The position numbers and the translations under genes were made by a program. Positions 6,682 through 39,039 of a DNA stretch of 45,121 nt are shown here, piece by piece. The DNA is from Thermodesulfobacteriota bacterium (lineage in GTDB: Bacteria > Desulfobacterota_D > UBA1144 > Nemesobacterales > UBA2774): contig BQJP01000022.1 in the NCBI GenBank assembly GCA_021604765.1, positions 1 through 45,121 of the forward strand. The letters are read 5' to 3'. The notes beneath the pieces were generated by a model. The model worked only from the letters and a program-made list of their open reading frames with translations. It searched no databases and had not been told where the DNA came from. Position 1 is the stretch's first letter, and every line of letters begins with the position of its first letter.

Positions 6682-7470
6682 TTACTGCTTATAGAACTTC
6701 TTTTCCCATTCTTTATGTTTCGTCTCAGCTTCACGAATAAAAGGCGCAAAAGCGGCAGCACTTACAACGAGTTTATTGAACAAATTGAACGGAAACTTAA
6801 CCGGTCTCACAAAGTCTACAAACAATACCGCTCTAAACCCATTGGTATCATTCCACACTTCATGATTGTAAGTGTCGTCAAAAATAATACTTTCACCCTC
6901 GTCCCAGTTTTTGATTTCTTTATCTATACGGATTCTGCATTTTTCTTTTGGTTCCGGAACAATTAATCCGAGGTGATATCTGAGAACACCGTTAAATGGT
7001 CCCTTATGAGCGGGTATATGCTTATTTGGCGAAAGTATTGAGAACATGGCTGTTTTCATGCCTGGTATTTTTTTGAGCAGACGGGTTGTCTCGGGACACC
7101 TTTTTGTGTTTTCGTCACTCTCAAGTCCATATCCTGCAAGAAAAAATGTTTTCCAATTGTTATCAGTTGTGATAGTCTCGACCTCAGGCATTACTTCATG
7201 AAAGCTTGGGAGGTCTTCCCGTCTTTCCATAACTTCATTAATCTCGTCCCTGATTTTCTCCCAGTTGTCTTCAATCTCTTTAACCCACGGAAAAGTTGAG
7301 TTGTCATAAATAGGGGGATTGCCGTATTTAGAAAACTTTTCATTGAACTTCTCTACCATGTTAATGAAAGAGGCGATAAGCCCATTAGCATATTCCTTAG
7401 TTTCATAATCAGCTTTTCTGTATTCTACTTCTTCCTGGTTATTTTGCGTTTCTTTGTTTATATCGCTCAT
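6682..7470 (-). CDS. Aspartyl/asparaginyl beta-hydroxylase-domain dioxygenase
   Basis: 262 residues. The C-terminal half is an AspH domain (the family that includes LpxO). A first iron-ligand histidine is expected at H155 in P-A-H-K-G-P-F-N-G, then L-R-Y-H-L-G-L, and the second at H203 in F-D-D-T-Y-N-H-E-V-W-N. A conserved arginine follows in G-F-R-A-V-L-F, which would hold 2-oxoglutarate. Family members use Fe(II), oxygen and 2-oxoglutarate to hydroxylate protein residues or lipid A acyl chains. It is the last gene of a minus-strand operon, 21 bases after the CDP-alcohol phosphotransferase, with a good AAGGA ribosome site. Context suggests a lipid or inositol-compound substrate (inference). 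No membrane anchor typical of LpxO is obvious. Confidence 0.8.
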   Translation of the reverse strand: MSDINKETQNNQEEVEYRKADYETKEYANGLIASFINMVEKFNEKFSKYGNPPIYDNSTFPWVKEIEDNWEKIRDEINEVMERREDLPSFHEVMPEVETITTDNNWKTFFLAGYGLESDENTKRCPETTRLLKKIPGMKTAMFSILSPNKHIPAHKGPFNGVLRYHLGLIVPEPKEKCRIRIDKEIKNWDEGESIIFDDTYNHEVWNDTNGFRAVLFVDFVRPVKFPFNLFNKLVVSAAAFAPFIREAETKHKEWEKKFYKQ

Positions 7471-7491
7471 AGTTTCTTCCTTTTACGCTCT

Positions 7492-8814
7492 TTAGTCTTG
7501 TATCTGTTTGTCAGGCTTAATTCTTCTTAGCTTAAGTATATCCTCAAATGAGTGAATAAAAAATAATATTGCCGCAATAGTTGTAATTCCCAGCACCCAT
7601 GGATACCCTCCTACTGCAGCAATCAATATAAATGCGGCTGAATATACGTTCCTTCTGCCCAGAGGACGCACTATTTTGATTAACTTTCTCATGAGCGAAG
7701 TTTTTTGCGGCTCAACAAGTTTGTCCACTTCAAAGTATGTTACCAGACTTCCCGAGTTGGTATATCTTGTCAGGAAATAAAACGACCACATTACAAAAAA
7801 TAGGAAGATAGAGACATTTATCCCACCTAGAATAAGCGCAATTGGTTTATGTGAAATGAGATAATAACCCAATGGCACGCCGATCAAGAAAGAAAGCACA
7901 GTAAACTGGTCTGAAACCGTATCTACCCATTGCCCCTTTTTAGTCTCCATTAATTTGACTCTTGCCACCTCTCCATCACACCTATCGAGTACTGTCGCAA
8001 TGTGCATAAAGAGCGCTCCGATTACCGGGTGGCCTAAAGCGTAAAATAAACCACACAAAGATCCTATAATATTGATCCCTATGCTAATCATATTAGGCGT
8101 AAGAGGCGTTTTGATTAATTGTCTGCTTGTTGGCAGGGAAAATTTGCTGTTTATATTTATCGAAATCCATCCTGTTGCAGTTTTCCCTACATAGTTGAAA
8201 ATGAGGTCTTCTGCATTTTTAGCCGTATCGTGATCCTCGTTTAACCTCATCCAATATTTCCCAGAAAACTTGCTATACTTAGCTCTCCCCTCATTTATTA
8301 GTTCAGCAATCATCTCATAAAGTGATTTAGAATCTGCAAAATATTTTTTCAGTATTTCTCCTGAAGCAATGAAAGCACCTACTGCCTTGCCACCATTTGG
8401 CGCCATTTCTTCAACTTGATCTTTGTTAGTTCTTACCCAGAGATCATCAGACGTGTCTGTTAGGATATATATCTCAGCTTTCTCAGTCTCTTGATCAATG
8501 AAATCAGATAAGGCTTGAGGAGTCGTAAGAAGGTTTGACTGAACTATTAAATACGGGATGTCATCAAAGGCTATATTCTCTTGAGTAGTTGTCCAGATTA
8601 TGGAACTTTCAATTCGTTTGTCGTGTGCTAATAAATCTTTAAGTTGGGAATCACTGTCTTCAGTGATAATTGTAAAGTGAGAAATTCCTGCTCGCTGAGC
8701 GGTAATAATTAGTCGTTTTATTTGGGCAAGCGCACCGAATTCGATGTTGCCATAAAGGCTTAGGTCAGTATCTTCAATACCTATGCCGGCCGCCACTACT
8801 ATTGCATGGTCCAT
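7492..8814 (-). CDS. Degenerate nucleotidyltransferase domain fused to CDP-alcohol phosphotransferase (IPCT/DIPPS-like)
   Basis: 440 residues in two parts. Residues 1-200 resemble a sugar-nucleotidyltransferase fold, but the nucleotide-binding loop is not canonical: instead of L-A-A-G-x-G-x-R-L it reads V-A-A-G-I-G-I-E-D. Residues 215-440 form a membrane CDP-alcohol phosphotransferase with the full motif D-G-x2-A-R-x8-G-x3-D-x3-D (D280 to D302) and several membrane helices. The join T-P-N-M-I-S is typical of the same family. The layout matches the bifunctional inositol-1-phosphate cytidylyltransferase/di-myo-inositol-phosphate-phosphate synthase of hyperthermophiles. Here the cytidylyltransferase half looks inactive, and the intact enzyme encoded 4 bases upstream may replace it. 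A polar product or a phospholipid are both possible. Confidence 0.78.
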   Translation of the reverse strand: MDHAIVVAAGIGIEDTDLSLYGNIEFGALAQIKRLIITAQRAGISHFTIITEDSDSQLKDLLAHDKRIESSIIWTTTQENIAFDDIPYLIVQSNLLTTPQALSDFIDQETEKAEIYILTDTSDDLWVRTNKDQVEEMAPNGGKAVGAFIASGEILKKYFADSKSLYEMIAELINEGRAKYSKFSGKYWMRLNEDHDTAKNAEDLIFNYVGKTATGWISININSKFSLPTSRQLIKTPLTPNMISIGINIIGSLCGLFYALGHPVIGALFMHIATVLDRCDGEVARVKLMETKKGQWVDTVSDQFTVLSFLIGVPLGYYLISHKPIALILGGINVSIFLFFVMWSFYFLTRYTNSGSLVTYFEVDKLVEPQKTSLMRKLIKIVRPLGRRNVYSAAFILIAAVGGYPWVLGITTIAAILFFIHSFEDILKLRRIKPDKQIQD

Positions 8815-8818
8815 GTCG

Positions 8819-9592
8819 TTAACTTGTTTCTACTACTCTTAGGACCCTTTCCTGATATGATTTCTTTATAAACTTATCAGAATTTAGTCTTGCTTTAAAT
8901 AAATCGCTCGGATAATCAACGTCCATCCAGAATAAGTCGTTTATATCTAGTGAGTTAACTTTATATCCTTTCTTTATTAACCTGTGAATGGCTGATATAT
9001 ACCATTTGTTTTCAGCCCCGCCAGTCCTCATTTCTTCTTCTATTGATCTCTTGAGAAGTTCTACACCTGTATCTCTGAAAACCCTCACACCCACTGACTC
9101 AGCTGATGCTCTGTTTGTAAGTGTTTTGCTGATATCAACAATCTTTGATTCCTGTATTATAACTTTCATGTCCTCGTCTTCATAATTAGTTTTGCGCTTG
9201 ACCGGAAGACAAATTTTCTCATCTCTCATTCTGAGAGCTTGTTCTAAAACATCAATTTCAAATACATCATCACCATTCATAACAACCATGTCGCTATCCA
9301 TTTCCCCTCTTGCTATCCAGAGAGATATCAAACTGTTTGTAGTTTGGTAAAATGGGTTATAAAGGGTTTTTATTTTCATTCCCAAGCCATCATAGTTTCT
9401 AAGAAAGTTTTCAACTTTCTCAAAACCAAATCCGACAACAATGACGATTTCATCAATACCACAATCTCTGATATGGTTGATCTGATGCTCTAATATTGTC
9501 TCACCACCGATTTCTAGCAAACACTTAGGAATATACTTAGTGTATGGGTAAAGCCTTTGGCCTCTACCGGCTGCAAGTATGACCGCTTTCAT
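8819..9592 (-). CDS. NTP transferase (candidate inositol-1-phosphate cytidylyltransferase)
   Basis: 257 residues, single domain. The N-terminus is the intact nucleotidyltransferase signature M-K-A-V-I-L-A-A-G-R-G-Q-R-L, then Y-I-P-K-C-L-L-E-I-G-G. The end has W-M-D-V-D-Y-P-S-D-L, a metal-binding motif seen in cytidylyl- and sugar-1-phosphate nucleotidyltransferases. It makes an NDP-activated alcohol or sugar. Because the next gene (gap 4 bases) is a CDP-alcohol phosphotransferase of the inositol type, a CTP:inositol-1-phosphate activity is plausible. Other substrates such as phosphocholine (LicC-like) fit the family equally well. The ATG overlaps the end of an upstream 32-codon ORF (ATGA), and a strong GGAGAGGA site precedes it. 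Confidence 0.82.
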   Translation of the reverse strand: MKAVILAAGRGQRLYPYTKYIPKCLLEIGGETILEHQINHIRDCGIDEIVIVVGFGFEKVENFLRNYDGLGMKIKTLYNPFYQTTNSLISLWIARGEMDSDMVVMNGDDVFEIDVLEQALRMRDEKICLPVKRKTNYEDEDMKVIIQESKIVDISKTLTNRASAESVGVRVFRDTGVELLKRSIEEEMRTGGAENKWYISAIHRLIKKGYKVNSLDINDLFWMDVDYPSDLFKARLNSDKFIKKSYQERVLRVVETS

Positions 9593-9687
9593 TTTTTATA
9601 TCCTCTCCGCTTAAGAAGGCTATGGACTAGTTGTTTATACTTTAGGTGTTTTAAAAACGATAGATCGGATACGAATTCAGTATCCAA
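9589..9687 (-). CDS. Candidate 32-codon leader ORF ahead of the inositol-type operon
   Basis: A TTG at 9687 follows the strong Shine-Dalgarno AAAGGAGG with a short gap of 3 bases. The frame runs 32 codons to a TGA that overlaps the ATG of the nucleotidyltransferase as ATGA, the usual sign of coupling. The encoded peptide is basic at its C-terminus (H-S-L-L-K-R-R-G-Y-K-K). A predicted promoter (9710-9738) would start the message near 9703, just before this Shine-Dalgarno. The same bases can fold into a hairpin (GGATAC / GTATCC with flanking GATC / GATC, about 9665-9692), so the region could act instead as a leader structure. I do not recognise the peptide. Confidence 0.35.
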   Translation of the reverse strand: MDTEFVSDLSFLKHLKYKQLVHSLLKRRGYKK

Positions 9688-9709
9688 GATCCTCCTTTAA
9701 TAACTTACA

Positions 9710-9738
9710 TTTATAACCTCGAATACAGTTTATGTCAA
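9710..9738 (-). promoter_or_regulatory. Strong candidate sigma70 promoter of the nucleotidyltransferase operon
   Basis: Minus-strand TTGACA (9733-9738), a 17-base spacer, then TATAAA (9710-9715). The expected start is near 9703, giving a leader of about 110 bases before the nucleotidyltransferase ATG. The remaining part of the 9593-9830 gap shows no other feature. Confidence 0.65.
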
Positions 9739-30423: not shown

Positions 30424-31797
30424 CTACGCGAAATCGTAGTAGTCTAACCCTAAGTGGGTAATTAACTCTTCACCCTGTAAGTATCTAAGGGTGTTCTTGA
30501 GCTTCATAAGCTGTATGAATACATCATGCTCAGGATAGAGGTTTTCGGCGTGCATAGGGCTTTTAAAGTAGAAAGATAGCCATTCCTGTATGCCATGGAG
30601 CCCTGCTCTGCTTGCCAAGTCAAGAAATATTACGAGATCAAGCACAATAGGGGCTGCAAGTATACTATCTCTGCAGAGGAAATTGACTTTAATCTGCATT
30701 GGGTAGTTCAACCAGCCAAAAATATCTATATTGTCCCAGGCTTCTTTAGCATCGCCCCTAGGTGGGTAATAGTTAATTCTCACCTTATGGTAATAATCAG
30801 AGTATAAATCTGGGTATAGGTCTGGTTGAAAAAGATGTTCAAGCACACTTAACTTACTTTCTTCTTTAGTTTTAAATGAATATGGATCGTCTAATACTTC
30901 TCCGTCTCTATTTCCTAAAATATTTGTTGAAAACCAACCATTAAGCCCAATCATTCTGCTCTTAAGGCCCGGAGCTAGTATAGTTTTCATTAATGTCTGA
31001 CCGGTTTTAAAATCTTTACCGGAAATAGGAACTTTCTTTTGTTTAGCGAGTTTGTCCAGTGCCGGTACGTCAGCTGACAAGTTTGGTGCGCCATTCGCAT
31101 AAGGGACACCGCATTTAATTGCAGCATAAGCATATATCATGCTAGGAGCAATAGCTGGATGATTTTTCTTCATCCCTTCTTCAAAGGATTTGATAGTATT
31201 GTGTACCTTTGAAGCTTGAATAAAGACCTCAGTGCTTCCGCACCATACCATTACAAGGCGATCAACACCGCTTTCTTTCTTAAATGTTTTTATGTCCTGT
31301 ATTAATTGCTCTGCAAGATCCATTTTGGTCTTGCCTTTCTTTACATGTTTACCGTTTAAGTTCTTAACATATTTTCTGCTGAAAACTGCAGACATAGGAG
31401 TTATTTCTTCAAGATCATCTTTTAGTTCATCTAAAAGAGTTTTGTCCAATACTCCTGATTTTATAGCAGCATCGTAGCAGTTATCGGCAAAGATATCCCA
31501 TCCTGCAAATACTAAATCTTCTAAATTTGTTAGTGGAATAAAATCTTTAATCAGAGGTGAATTCTTATCAGTCCGTTTCCCTATTCTGATTGTACCCATT
31601 TGGGTTAGGGAGCCGATAGGTTTACCTAAACCAGCTTTTATTGCCTCAACACCTGCAACAAAAGTAGTGCTGACAGCACCGCTCATACCCGGAAGCAATA
31701 CACCTAACTTTCCTTTTGGCGGGGCTATATTATTCTTTTTTATTGAAGTTTTCTTTTTGCTCTTACTATTTTTATTCTTATTAGTGGTAGTTGCCAA
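30424..31797 (-). CDS. Inositol-1(3)-phosphate synthase (MIPS/INO1)
   Basis: 457 residues. It converts glucose-6-phosphate to inositol phosphate with NAD. The Rossmann segment is G-V-L-L-P-G-M-S-G-A-V-S-T-T. Later blocks such as Y-A-N-G-A-P-N-L-S-A-D, G-K-D-F-K-T-G-Q-T-L, L-N-G-W-F-S-T-N-I-L-G-N-R-D-G and W-L-N-Y-P-M-Q-I-K-V-N-F mark the longer, eukaryote/Bacteroidetes-type enzyme rather than the short actinobacterial-archaeal type. A 24-residue lysine-rich N-terminal tail precedes the domain. The start is TTG at 31797, 10 bases after GAGGT and only 8 bases after the rpsI stop, so it appears to be part of the ribosomal operon. A likely partner is the CDP-alcohol operon at 6.7-9.7 kb. Confidence 0.92.
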   Translation of the reverse strand: MATTTNKNKNSKSKKKTSIKKNNIAPPKGKLGVLLPGMSGAVSTTFVAGVEAIKAGLGKPIGSLTQMGTIRIGKRTDKNSPLIKDFIPLTNLEDLVFAGWDIFADNCYDAAIKSGVLDKTLLDELKDDLEEITPMSAVFSRKYVKNLNGKHVKKGKTKMDLAEQLIQDIKTFKKESGVDRLVMVWCGSTEVFIQASKVHNTIKSFEEGMKKNHPAIAPSMIYAYAAIKCGVPYANGAPNLSADVPALDKLAKQKKVPISGKDFKTGQTLMKTILAPGLKSRMIGLNGWFSTNILGNRDGEVLDDPYSFKTKEESKLSVLEHLFQPDLYPDLYSDYYHKVRINYYPPRGDAKEAWDNIDIFGWLNYPMQIKVNFLCRDSILAAPIVLDLVIFLDLASRAGLHGIQEWLSFYFKSPMHAENLYPEHDVFIQLMKLKNTLRYLQGEELITHLGLDYYDFA

Positions 31798-37830: not shown

Positions 37831-38328
37831 TTACCAGCTAATCCCTCTGCTTTTTATATCATCAAGCAGGTTAGTGAGAGGTTTATTCTCTGCAACCCAA
37901 AAACTTCCAGAGTCCTCAGAATTAAAAACCGGTTTTTCAAATTTACATACTTTTATTACTTCCTCGCAATTTGAATCCATAACTTCTCCAGTGCCTAAAG
38001 TCGTACAATTCATTTCAAAGTCCTCTAGGTTAATAGTTATTGCGGACCAATTCCCTGCATTTAATTCCGATGCCCAACCAGCACTTGCTCCCGGATCTTT
38101 AGACATTACGTGGTTTAGCCAAAAACTCTTGTCTGATACATTATGAAGTAAATATAGACTCTGTTTTGAAGAACTTTCGTTAAGAATCACATTTTGAGAT
38201 CTAAATTCATAACTCTCGGCTGTACAACCTTCTGGAAAATCTGAATCCGCAGTGCCTCCACTGCATCCTATAGGCGATAAAAGCACAAATAAAGTAATTA
38301 TAAAGAATTTTCTTATAGGAAAAGTCAC
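37831..38328 (-). CDS. Hypothetical lipoprotein
   Basis: 165 residues from a GTG at 38328, which lies 6 bases after GGAGGG. An ATG seven codons earlier lies before that Shine-Dalgarno and would put it inside the gene. The signal peptide starts T-F-P-I-R-K-F-F and ends with lipobox S-P-I-G-C (Cys 22). The mature part has several cysteines and a central block L-Y-L-L-H-N-V-S, then K-D-P-G-A-S-A-G-W-A-S. This faintly recalls the EnhB-like secreted proteins of Legionella and Coxiella (from memory, not verified). Function unknown. Confidence 0.7.
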   Translation of the reverse strand: MTFPIRKFFIITLFVLLSPIGCSGGTADSDFPEGCTAESYEFRSQNVILNESSSKQSLYLLHNVSDKSFWLNHVMSKDPGASAGWASELNAGNWSAITINLEDFEMNCTTLGTGEVMDSNCEEVIKVCKFEKPVFNSEDSGSFWVAENKPLTNLLDDIKSRGISW

Positions 38329-38460
38329 TTTATTCCCTCCATATTTCATTTCTACTGCTTAATAATACTATAGTTGAGTAAATATTCCCAAATAATAAAT
38401 TTCAAATAGTATATCAAAAACGATCAGTTATCCTTATTAAATAACAATAAAAGGGGATAA

Positions 38461-39039
38461 ATGGCGATGAAATACCTTTCAGTTCTTTTAGTTTCAATTT
38501 TCATACTAGTTTCAATATCTTGCGATACATTAGATGATAGCGGTATAGACCCTGATCCGCTTATTACAGCGGAAATAGCGGACTCTCAAACCTACAATCT
38601 AGTAACTCCTGTATATGGAATGCAGGTATCCATTAAGAACGGTGTAGATAGAAGTGATCAGGGTGTGCTGGATATTCTAGATAGAAGAGCCACACAATTT
38701 TTGGACTGTCAATTTGCCGAGGGTTCACAACTTGGCTTTGAGCAAGTAATGCTAGATGATGGGACTATTGTTCCTCCACTCTCTGATCTCAGGGTTTTTG
38801 TAGTTCCTATCAGATATAAGTGTGATGTTCCAGGAACTAGCGTGTGTAACGGAACATACTTTAGTGGCGTTGATATAGTTACAGTTGCAGAAGGCGGATT
38901 CGCAGGATGTGATGTATTTCTTCCATGGAAGCATGAGCTTGGTCATAGATATGGTATGGAGCTCGATCATAGTAATCAATCGGATTTTCAGTCATGTATA
39001 GGAGATTCTAGTTGTGATATAGGGGATATTTTTGACTAG
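38461..39039 (+). CDS. Lipoprotein with HELGH zinc-protease-like motif
   Basis: 192 residues. Signal peptide with lipobox S-I-S-C (Cys 21). AAGGGG lies just upstream, and a second ATG at 38467 is possible. Near the C-terminus H-E-L-G-H-R-Y-G-M-E-L-D-H gives HExxHxxG, close to the metzincin zinc motif, though the third ligand would be a histidine two residues later than normal. Six cysteines occur in the second half, four of them flanking this motif. The protein is short for a protease and lacks a long C-terminal lobe, so it may be a minimal or inactive relative. It sits divergently from the preceding lipoprotein gene. Confidence 0.65.
   Translation: MAMKYLSVLLVSIFILVSISCDTLDDSGIDPDPLITAEIADSQTYNLVTPVYGMQVSIKNGVDRSDQGVLDILDRRATQFLDCQFAEGSQLGFEQVMLDDGTIVPPLSDLRVFVVPIRYKCDVPGTSVCNGTYFSGVDIVTVAEGGFAGCDVFLPWKHELGHRYGMELDHSNQSDFQSCIGDSSCDIGDIFD

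Follow-up and report, generated by a model that had tools for sequence, protein, structure and literature searches.

The 45,121-nucleotide contig BQJP01000022.1 (assembly GCA_021604765.1), analysed as a whole and called the window below, carries an operon that is read here as a lipid-headgroup operon. Its core consists of NT, an intact nucleotidyltransferase, and FUS, in which a dead nucleotidyltransferase domain is joined to a CDP-alcohol phosphotransferase (CDP-AP); the third gene encodes an AspH-type Fe(II)/2-oxoglutarate (2OG) hydroxylase. In this reading, which is given an even chance, NT makes a CDP-activated alcohol (CDP-X), FUS puts phospho-X on a lipid, and the hydroxylase 2-hydroxylates the acyl chain. 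Glycerate is the leading single candidate for X, a tentative choice based on the kinship of NT with CpgD (CCNA_01210), the CTP:phosphoglycerate cytidylyltransferase of Caulobacter (PMC12275187). The parts of the system are ordinary, whereas their combination is new and phylogenetically pervasive. The three open reading frames and their spacing are exactly as described in the original prediction, all on the minus strand (Table 1).

The source genome belongs to Candidatus Dadabacteria; its nearest named relatives are mostly members of this group, which is a class of Thermodesulfobacteriota in NCBI. FUS is found by protein search in 55 of 58 genomes of the class, including streamlined genomes of about 1 Mb, and the other three have no FUS match or a phosphatidylinositol-phosphate (PIP)-synthase-type protein alone. 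NT lies directly upstream of FUS in all of the named Dadabacteria loci (44/44), usually adjoining panD, and the pairing is therefore not due to chance. In most loci NT is the best conserved of the set (e.g., 92% vs. 64% for FUS in L090). Two loci labelled Poribacteria and Thermodesulfobacteriales (L108 and L085) also contain the Dadabacteria locus and probably represent mislabelled metagenome-assembled genomes (MAGs). Outside the class, NT–FUS pairs occur at 12 loci from Gemmatimonadota, Latescibacterota, and similar MAGs; no match to FUS was found among plasmids. At the one of these loci that was read closely (L130, of Gemmatimonadota/Latescibacterota type), NT–FUS is followed by genes for LPG_synthase_TM (a YbhN-type flippase-like protein), a TolC-family protein, DUF3047, MlaC, and MMPL, a context that reads, by gene family, as lipid export and traffic toward the outer membrane. 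The same neighbourhood (L130:1244-4807) also encodes a flippase of the polysaccharide type, a second NT of divergent sequence, and a CDP-AP that resembles CpgA but is degenerate at its catalytic Asp positions.

NT matches the nucleotidyltransferase families PF00483 and PF12804. Its top PDB profile matches are LicC, 4jd0, and PntC, and its top three Foldseek neighbours are PntC, LicC, and the inositol-1-phosphate cytidylyltransferase (IPCT) of T. maritima, all of which are CTP:alcohol-phosphate enzymes. The comparison with IPCT and LicC proposed in the original prediction thus assigns NT to the alcohol-phosphate type, but places it outside the IPCT group. Activation of a sugar-1-phosphate is not the first choice, because CTP:alcohol-phosphate enzymes head both the structural and the sequence matches; sugar enzymes come close behind. 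On plasmids, the nearest proteins to NT are COG1213 members that NCBI names "phosphocholine cytidylyltransferase family". The pDCB2 (Diaphorobacter) and pPNP1 (Pseudomonas) proteins (35–38% identity) lie among genes for an acyl-AMP ligase, ACP, an Spt-like aminotransferase, LptF/LptG, a lipid kinase, a second nucleotidyltransferase, and a CDP-AP, sets that match the Caulobacter phosphosphingolipid cluster (as described in PMC11324152). These plasmid proteins are taken as CpgD orthologues from synteny and residue spacing rather than from the sequence of CpgD itself. On pPNP1, the genes for the CpgD-like NT, a CDP-AP, and an AspH protein (47% identical) are adjacent, forming an independent trio like that of the operon.

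NT shares the pattern EDMKV...SK...ES[VI]G with the CpgD-syntenic enzymes, and in a phylogenetic tree it groups with CpgD-like and Latescibacterota-type NTs (support 88/88), apart from IPCTs; the tree has several long branches, and this grouping, which also contains an NT from a Rhizobium phosphonate locus, is the only one relied on. The residues around CDP-glycerate in CpgD have been described (PMC13228409). Arg13, Lys23, and Asp108 of NT, which correspond to the catalytic Arg16, Lys26, and Asp112 of CpgD, are invariant in 28 homologues. Asn106, Gly107, Met142, Lys156, Ser166, and Trp197 likewise correspond to CpgD Asn110, Gly111, Met147, Lys161, Ser170, and Trp201, so that four of the five glycerate contacts of CpgD (Asn90, Asn110, Met147, Lys161, and Ser170) are present in NT, as mapped by published numbering and spacing rather than by direct alignment. 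The donor chemistry looks like that of CpgD, whereas the transferase belongs to another branch.

FUS has PF01066 as its sole Pfam match, and its motif D277xxD280G281xxA284R285x8G294xxxD298xxxD302 is complete, in agreement with the D-G-x2-A-R motif originally reported. The AlphaFold2 (AF2) model of FUS has a mean predicted local distance difference test score (pLDDT) of 84.4 and six membrane helices, as read from its helix list. The best Foldseek matches of the N-terminal domain are 4mnd and AF2299 (4o6n/4o6m). This domain, correctly called degenerate in the original prediction, retains the nucleotidyltransferase fold, but its catalytic Arg, Lys, and metal-binding Asp are gone. The proposed kinship with the fusion of IPCT and di-myo-inositol phosphate (DIPP) synthase (DIPPS) also holds, with a profile–profile E-value of 1.4e-42 across the full length.

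The inositol chemistry that had been attached to this kinship fares less well. Two arginines bind inositol phosphate in RsPIPS (PMC4634129); the equivalent of Arg153, which is the GRDxR arginine of DIPP synthase, is Tyr/Phe391 in all 33 FUS proteins compared, and the Arg191 position is not conserved among them, whereas DIPPS and AF2299 retain RDxR and RR at these positions. FUS scores 91 bits against the cut-off of 580 bits for the DIPP-synthase equivalog NF041135, a Thermococcales-based model for which clear DIPPS relatives also fall short (250–319 bits). A. fulgidus and T. maritima IPCTs and relatives (2xme, 4jd0, and the DIPPS relatives) carry the signature [TS]K[VI]...IGK...DTG.F, which is not found in NT. 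Some relatives have a genuine IPCT/DIPPS fusion besides FUS. Such fusions occur in a minority of Dadabacteria (L045, L046, L047, L049, and L050), and in several of these loci a small gene follows, with a weak HDIG-domain match in L046.

The myo-inositol-1-phosphate synthase (MIPS) noted elsewhere in the window is present and is the sole copy in the genome. The survey of its co-occurrence with the operon finds MIPS in 53 of the 58 Dadabacteria genomes and in all 13 other genomes tested, and decides nothing, because MIPS is almost everywhere and can be accounted for by a PIP-synthase-type enzyme. This stand-alone CDP-AP on contig C50 (L033:1300-2043) has as its best models archaetidylinositol-phosphate synthase (141 bits; cut-off 180) and PIP synthase (117 bits; cut-off 170), both below cut-off, and bears RTER and LQR at the two inositol-phosphate arginine positions of RsPIPS, as mapped by residue counting. 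MIPS therefore has a consumer, and the pair suggests, from the gene content, that Dadabacteria may make phosphatidylinositol (PI). The gene adjoins argS, a SPOR protein gene, and carB. Inositol as the alcohol activated by NT is thus not supported by these comparisons, and phosphoglycerate is more likely than inositol as the NT/FUS compound.

The third protein matches PF05118 (185.8 bits) and scores 354.6 bits with the OlsC model NF052565, as against 150 for LpxO; this is below the OlsC equivalog cut-off of 450 bits, and the protein is 51–52% identical to proteins above it. His155 and His203 (likely Fe-binding) and Arg213 (2OG) are invariant, their roles being assigned by alignment to AspH. OlsB was not found in this genome, where the sole PF13444 match is a GNAT belonging to a different named family. 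The known substrates of such hydroxylases, ornithine lipid and lipid A, seem to be absent, OlsB and LpxC (see below) both being missing, and a new lipid is therefore likely the substrate of the hydroxylase. The operon structure points to the NT/FUS product as that lipid. The original suggestion of a CDP-inositol-derived phospholipid, perhaps hydroxylated by the third enzyme, accordingly survives in its phospholipid and hydroxylation parts as the best reading, but not in its inositol part.

LpxC, required for lipid A synthesis, was found in none of the 58 Dadabacteria genomes searched, 43 of which have a completeness of 90% or more and a contamination of 5% or less, whereas the same search was positive in four control genomes and one outgroup. 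This suggests that the class may lack lipopolysaccharide (LPS). No paper stating that Dadabacteria lack LPS was found, nor any useful on the Dadabacteria envelope. An outer membrane is probable, because BamD/YfiO is encoded in the window. Three PF01066 proteins were found in this genome (PssA, the PIP-synthase-type enzyme, and FUS); none is PgsA, and other anionic lipids should therefore be scarce. Pss and Psd make the synthesis of phosphatidylethanolamine (PE) possible. A phosphonate headgroup was considered and rejected, as the PEP-mutase-family match is nearest to methylisocitrate lyase.

In the proposed pathway, NT would make CDP-X from CTP and a small alcohol phosphate. Because the nucleotidyltransferase domain of FUS is dead, FUS would take soluble CDP-X as its donor and, at the six-helix active site in the membrane, pass phospho-X to a membrane lipid at its polar end. 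In genomes that have it, the OlsC-like enzyme would 2-hydroxylate an acyl chain of the resulting lipid. A glycerolipid headgroup (PI or PE) is the preferred guess for the acceptor, with a soluble alcohol as the main alternative. Glycerate as X would need no extra synthase, because phosphoglycerate is present in every cell. The analysis establishes the order of the genes and its conservation, the folds, the catalytic residues, and the missing LpxC, from which the identity of X, the acceptor lipid, the coupling between NT and FUS, and the role in the outer membrane are inferred. The product is likely an anionic lipid, and an outer-membrane lipid doing the job of LPS in bacteria without lipid A is plausible, a role made attractive by the missing LpxC, the presence of BamD, and the scarcity of other anionic lipids. 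To our knowledge, many diderms are thought to be LPS-free, and the outer-leaflet content of most of them is not known. In its fullest and doubtful form, the proposal is that Dadabacteria are diderms naturally without LPS, that their outer membrane depends on a dedicated anionic glycerolipid of the phosphoglycerate type (or with another phospho-alcohol) made by this operon, and that FUS represents a CDP-AP subfamily that came out of the DIPP-synthase line and acquired both a new donor and a new acceptor. The two-gene core is found throughout an uncultured group, is retained despite genome streamlining, and gives a clear biochemical hypothesis; if it is true, CDP-glycerate chemistry reaches beyond sphingolipids, and orphan AF2299-like CDP-APs gain a possible function.

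Several observations weigh against the proposed pathway. At the position of CpgD Asn90, a residue in contact with ribose and glycerate, Dadabacteria have Ser (Ser87, after Asn86). Serine palmitoyltransferase was not found in this genome, where the only Spt-like gene is BioF, beside BioA; a ceramide product was rejected on this basis, and with no ceramide backbone the lipid cannot be ceramide diphosphoglycerate (CPG2). By hhalign, FUS is much nearer to DIPPS/AF2299 (E 1.4e-42), and CpgA-like CDP-APs are well behind (E 3.6e-16). Soluble acceptors have been ascribed to six-helix CDP-APs (PMC4634129), yet a lipid headgroup is the proposed acceptor of CpgA, which is likewise compact. The hydroxylase gene is present in 15 of the 44 Dadabacteria loci and missing from most lineages, and its nearest relatives, including the best on plasmids, stand alone; it is not tied to the operon everywhere.

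The strongest competing explanation, although an unlikely one, is that FUS uses CDP-X and a soluble alcohol to form a compatible solute, as DIPP synthase does. The six-helix topology of FUS and its resemblance to AF2299 and DIPP synthase, neither of which is a lipid-processing enzyme, are consistent with such a product, but the acceptor-site residues of FUS are unlike those of both enzymes, the operon is shared with an acyl hydroxylase here and with lipid export genes in other phyla, and FUS and NT are kept alike in marine, groundwater, sponge, and streamlined genomes. A Kennedy-type route, in which FUS transfers the headgroup of NT-made CDP-choline or CDP-ethanolamine to diacylglycerol, is less probable still. 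LicC is the best PDB sequence match of NT, and the NCBI name of its plasmid relatives refers to phosphocholine; yet this family name also spans glycerate, glutamine, and phosphonate enzymes, Pss/Psd can supply PE in this organism, and choline/ethanolamine phosphotransferases have three to four more membrane helices than FUS. The route originally favoured, from CDP-inositol to di-myo-inositol phosphate or an inositol phosphodiester lipid, is very improbable: the full-length homology of FUS to IPCT/DIPPS and the near-universal MIPS speak for it, but a separate enzyme keeping both arginine positions explains MIPS, NT lacks the IPCT signature and falls outside the IPCT tree group, FUS lacks the acceptor arginines, and real IPCT/DIPPS genes are separate in some relatives.

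Table 1. Positions of the operon genes, their domains and motifs, the upstream elements, and MIPS in the window.
Feature	Position	Strand	Details
NT: putative intact CTP:alcohol-phosphate cytidylyltransferase, CpgD-like	8819-9592	minus	257 aa; Pfam/NCBIfam, PDB profile search, Foldseek, tree
FUS	7492-8814	minus	440 aa; starts 4 bases downstream of NT
AspH-type, OlsC-like Fe(II)/2OG lipid acyl hydroxylase (predicted), optional third gene	6682-7470	minus	262 aa; 21 bases beyond FUS; NF052565, identity, invariant residues
FUS residues 1-195: degenerate nucleotidyltransferase domain	8230-8814	minus	AF2 model, Foldseek 4mnd/AF2299; catalytic R, K, D absent
FUS residues 215-432: six-helix CDP-AP domain	7519-8172	minus	PF01066; AF2299 profile E 1.8e-30; AF2 secondary structure
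CDP-AP catalytic motif DRCDGEVAR(x8)GQWVDTVSD, FUS residues 277-302	7909-7986	minus	invariant in 33 homologues
Sigma-70-type promoter: TTGACA 9738-9733, 17 bases, TATAAA 9715-9710	9710-9738	minus	sequence and conservation
Leader hairpin GGATAC...GTATCC between promoter and NT	9665-9687	minus	terminator-type scan and alignment
MIPS, context only, outside operon	30424-31797	minus	PF07994/PF01658; single copy in genome

The promoter originally placed ahead of the operon is present. Its conservation extends through the genus and, in part, to other genera: in the alignment, the block TTGACA ... GAGGTTATA is kept among members of the genus and three sequences from other genera. The promoter scan skipped it, because the scan rule demands T as the sixth base of the −10 element. 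Between the promoter and NT (9665-9700), AAAGGAGGATC and the hairpin are kept across the genus, making this segment a possible regulatory leader by conservation; an Rfam search of it gave no credible family. Elsewhere in the window, two open reading frames (37831-38349, 172 aa; 38461-39039, 192 aa) have no Pfam match.

Among known systems, AF2299 (4o6m) and A. fulgidus IPCT/DIPPS (4mnd) share with FUS the arrangement of a nucleotidyltransferase-fold domain and a six-helix CDP-AP, and the N-terminal domain of AF2299 is likewise cytidylyltransferase-like. The DIPP-synthase motif D..DG..AR........G...D...D is also found in FUS. DIPPS differs in having an active IPCT domain, whereas FUS lacks the catalytic Arg, Lys, and Asp; FUS is further set apart from AF2299 and DIPPS by its own G-S-x3-Y motif, a longer loop ahead of the last helices, and the lack of the acceptor-site arginines. 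The third protein resembles OlsC, the ester-linked acyl 2-hydroxylase of ornithine lipid, in identity (about 51%) and active-site residues, but scores below the equivalog cut-off in a genome where OlsB was not found. CpgA-type CDP-APs are similar to FUS in layout and in having a partner NT, but carry a DSVDGK-type motif and show far weaker profile similarity to FUS than DIPPS does. NT is closest in kind to CpgD, being of the COG1213 type with its catalytic and, as mapped by spacing, probably most of its glycerate-contacting residues; it differs in having Ser for Asn90, in a genome devoid of ceramide genes, and in its partner CDP-AP from another subfamily. Ceramide diphosphoglycerate supports Caulobacter without LPS, and the glycerolipid proposed here would be its counterpart.

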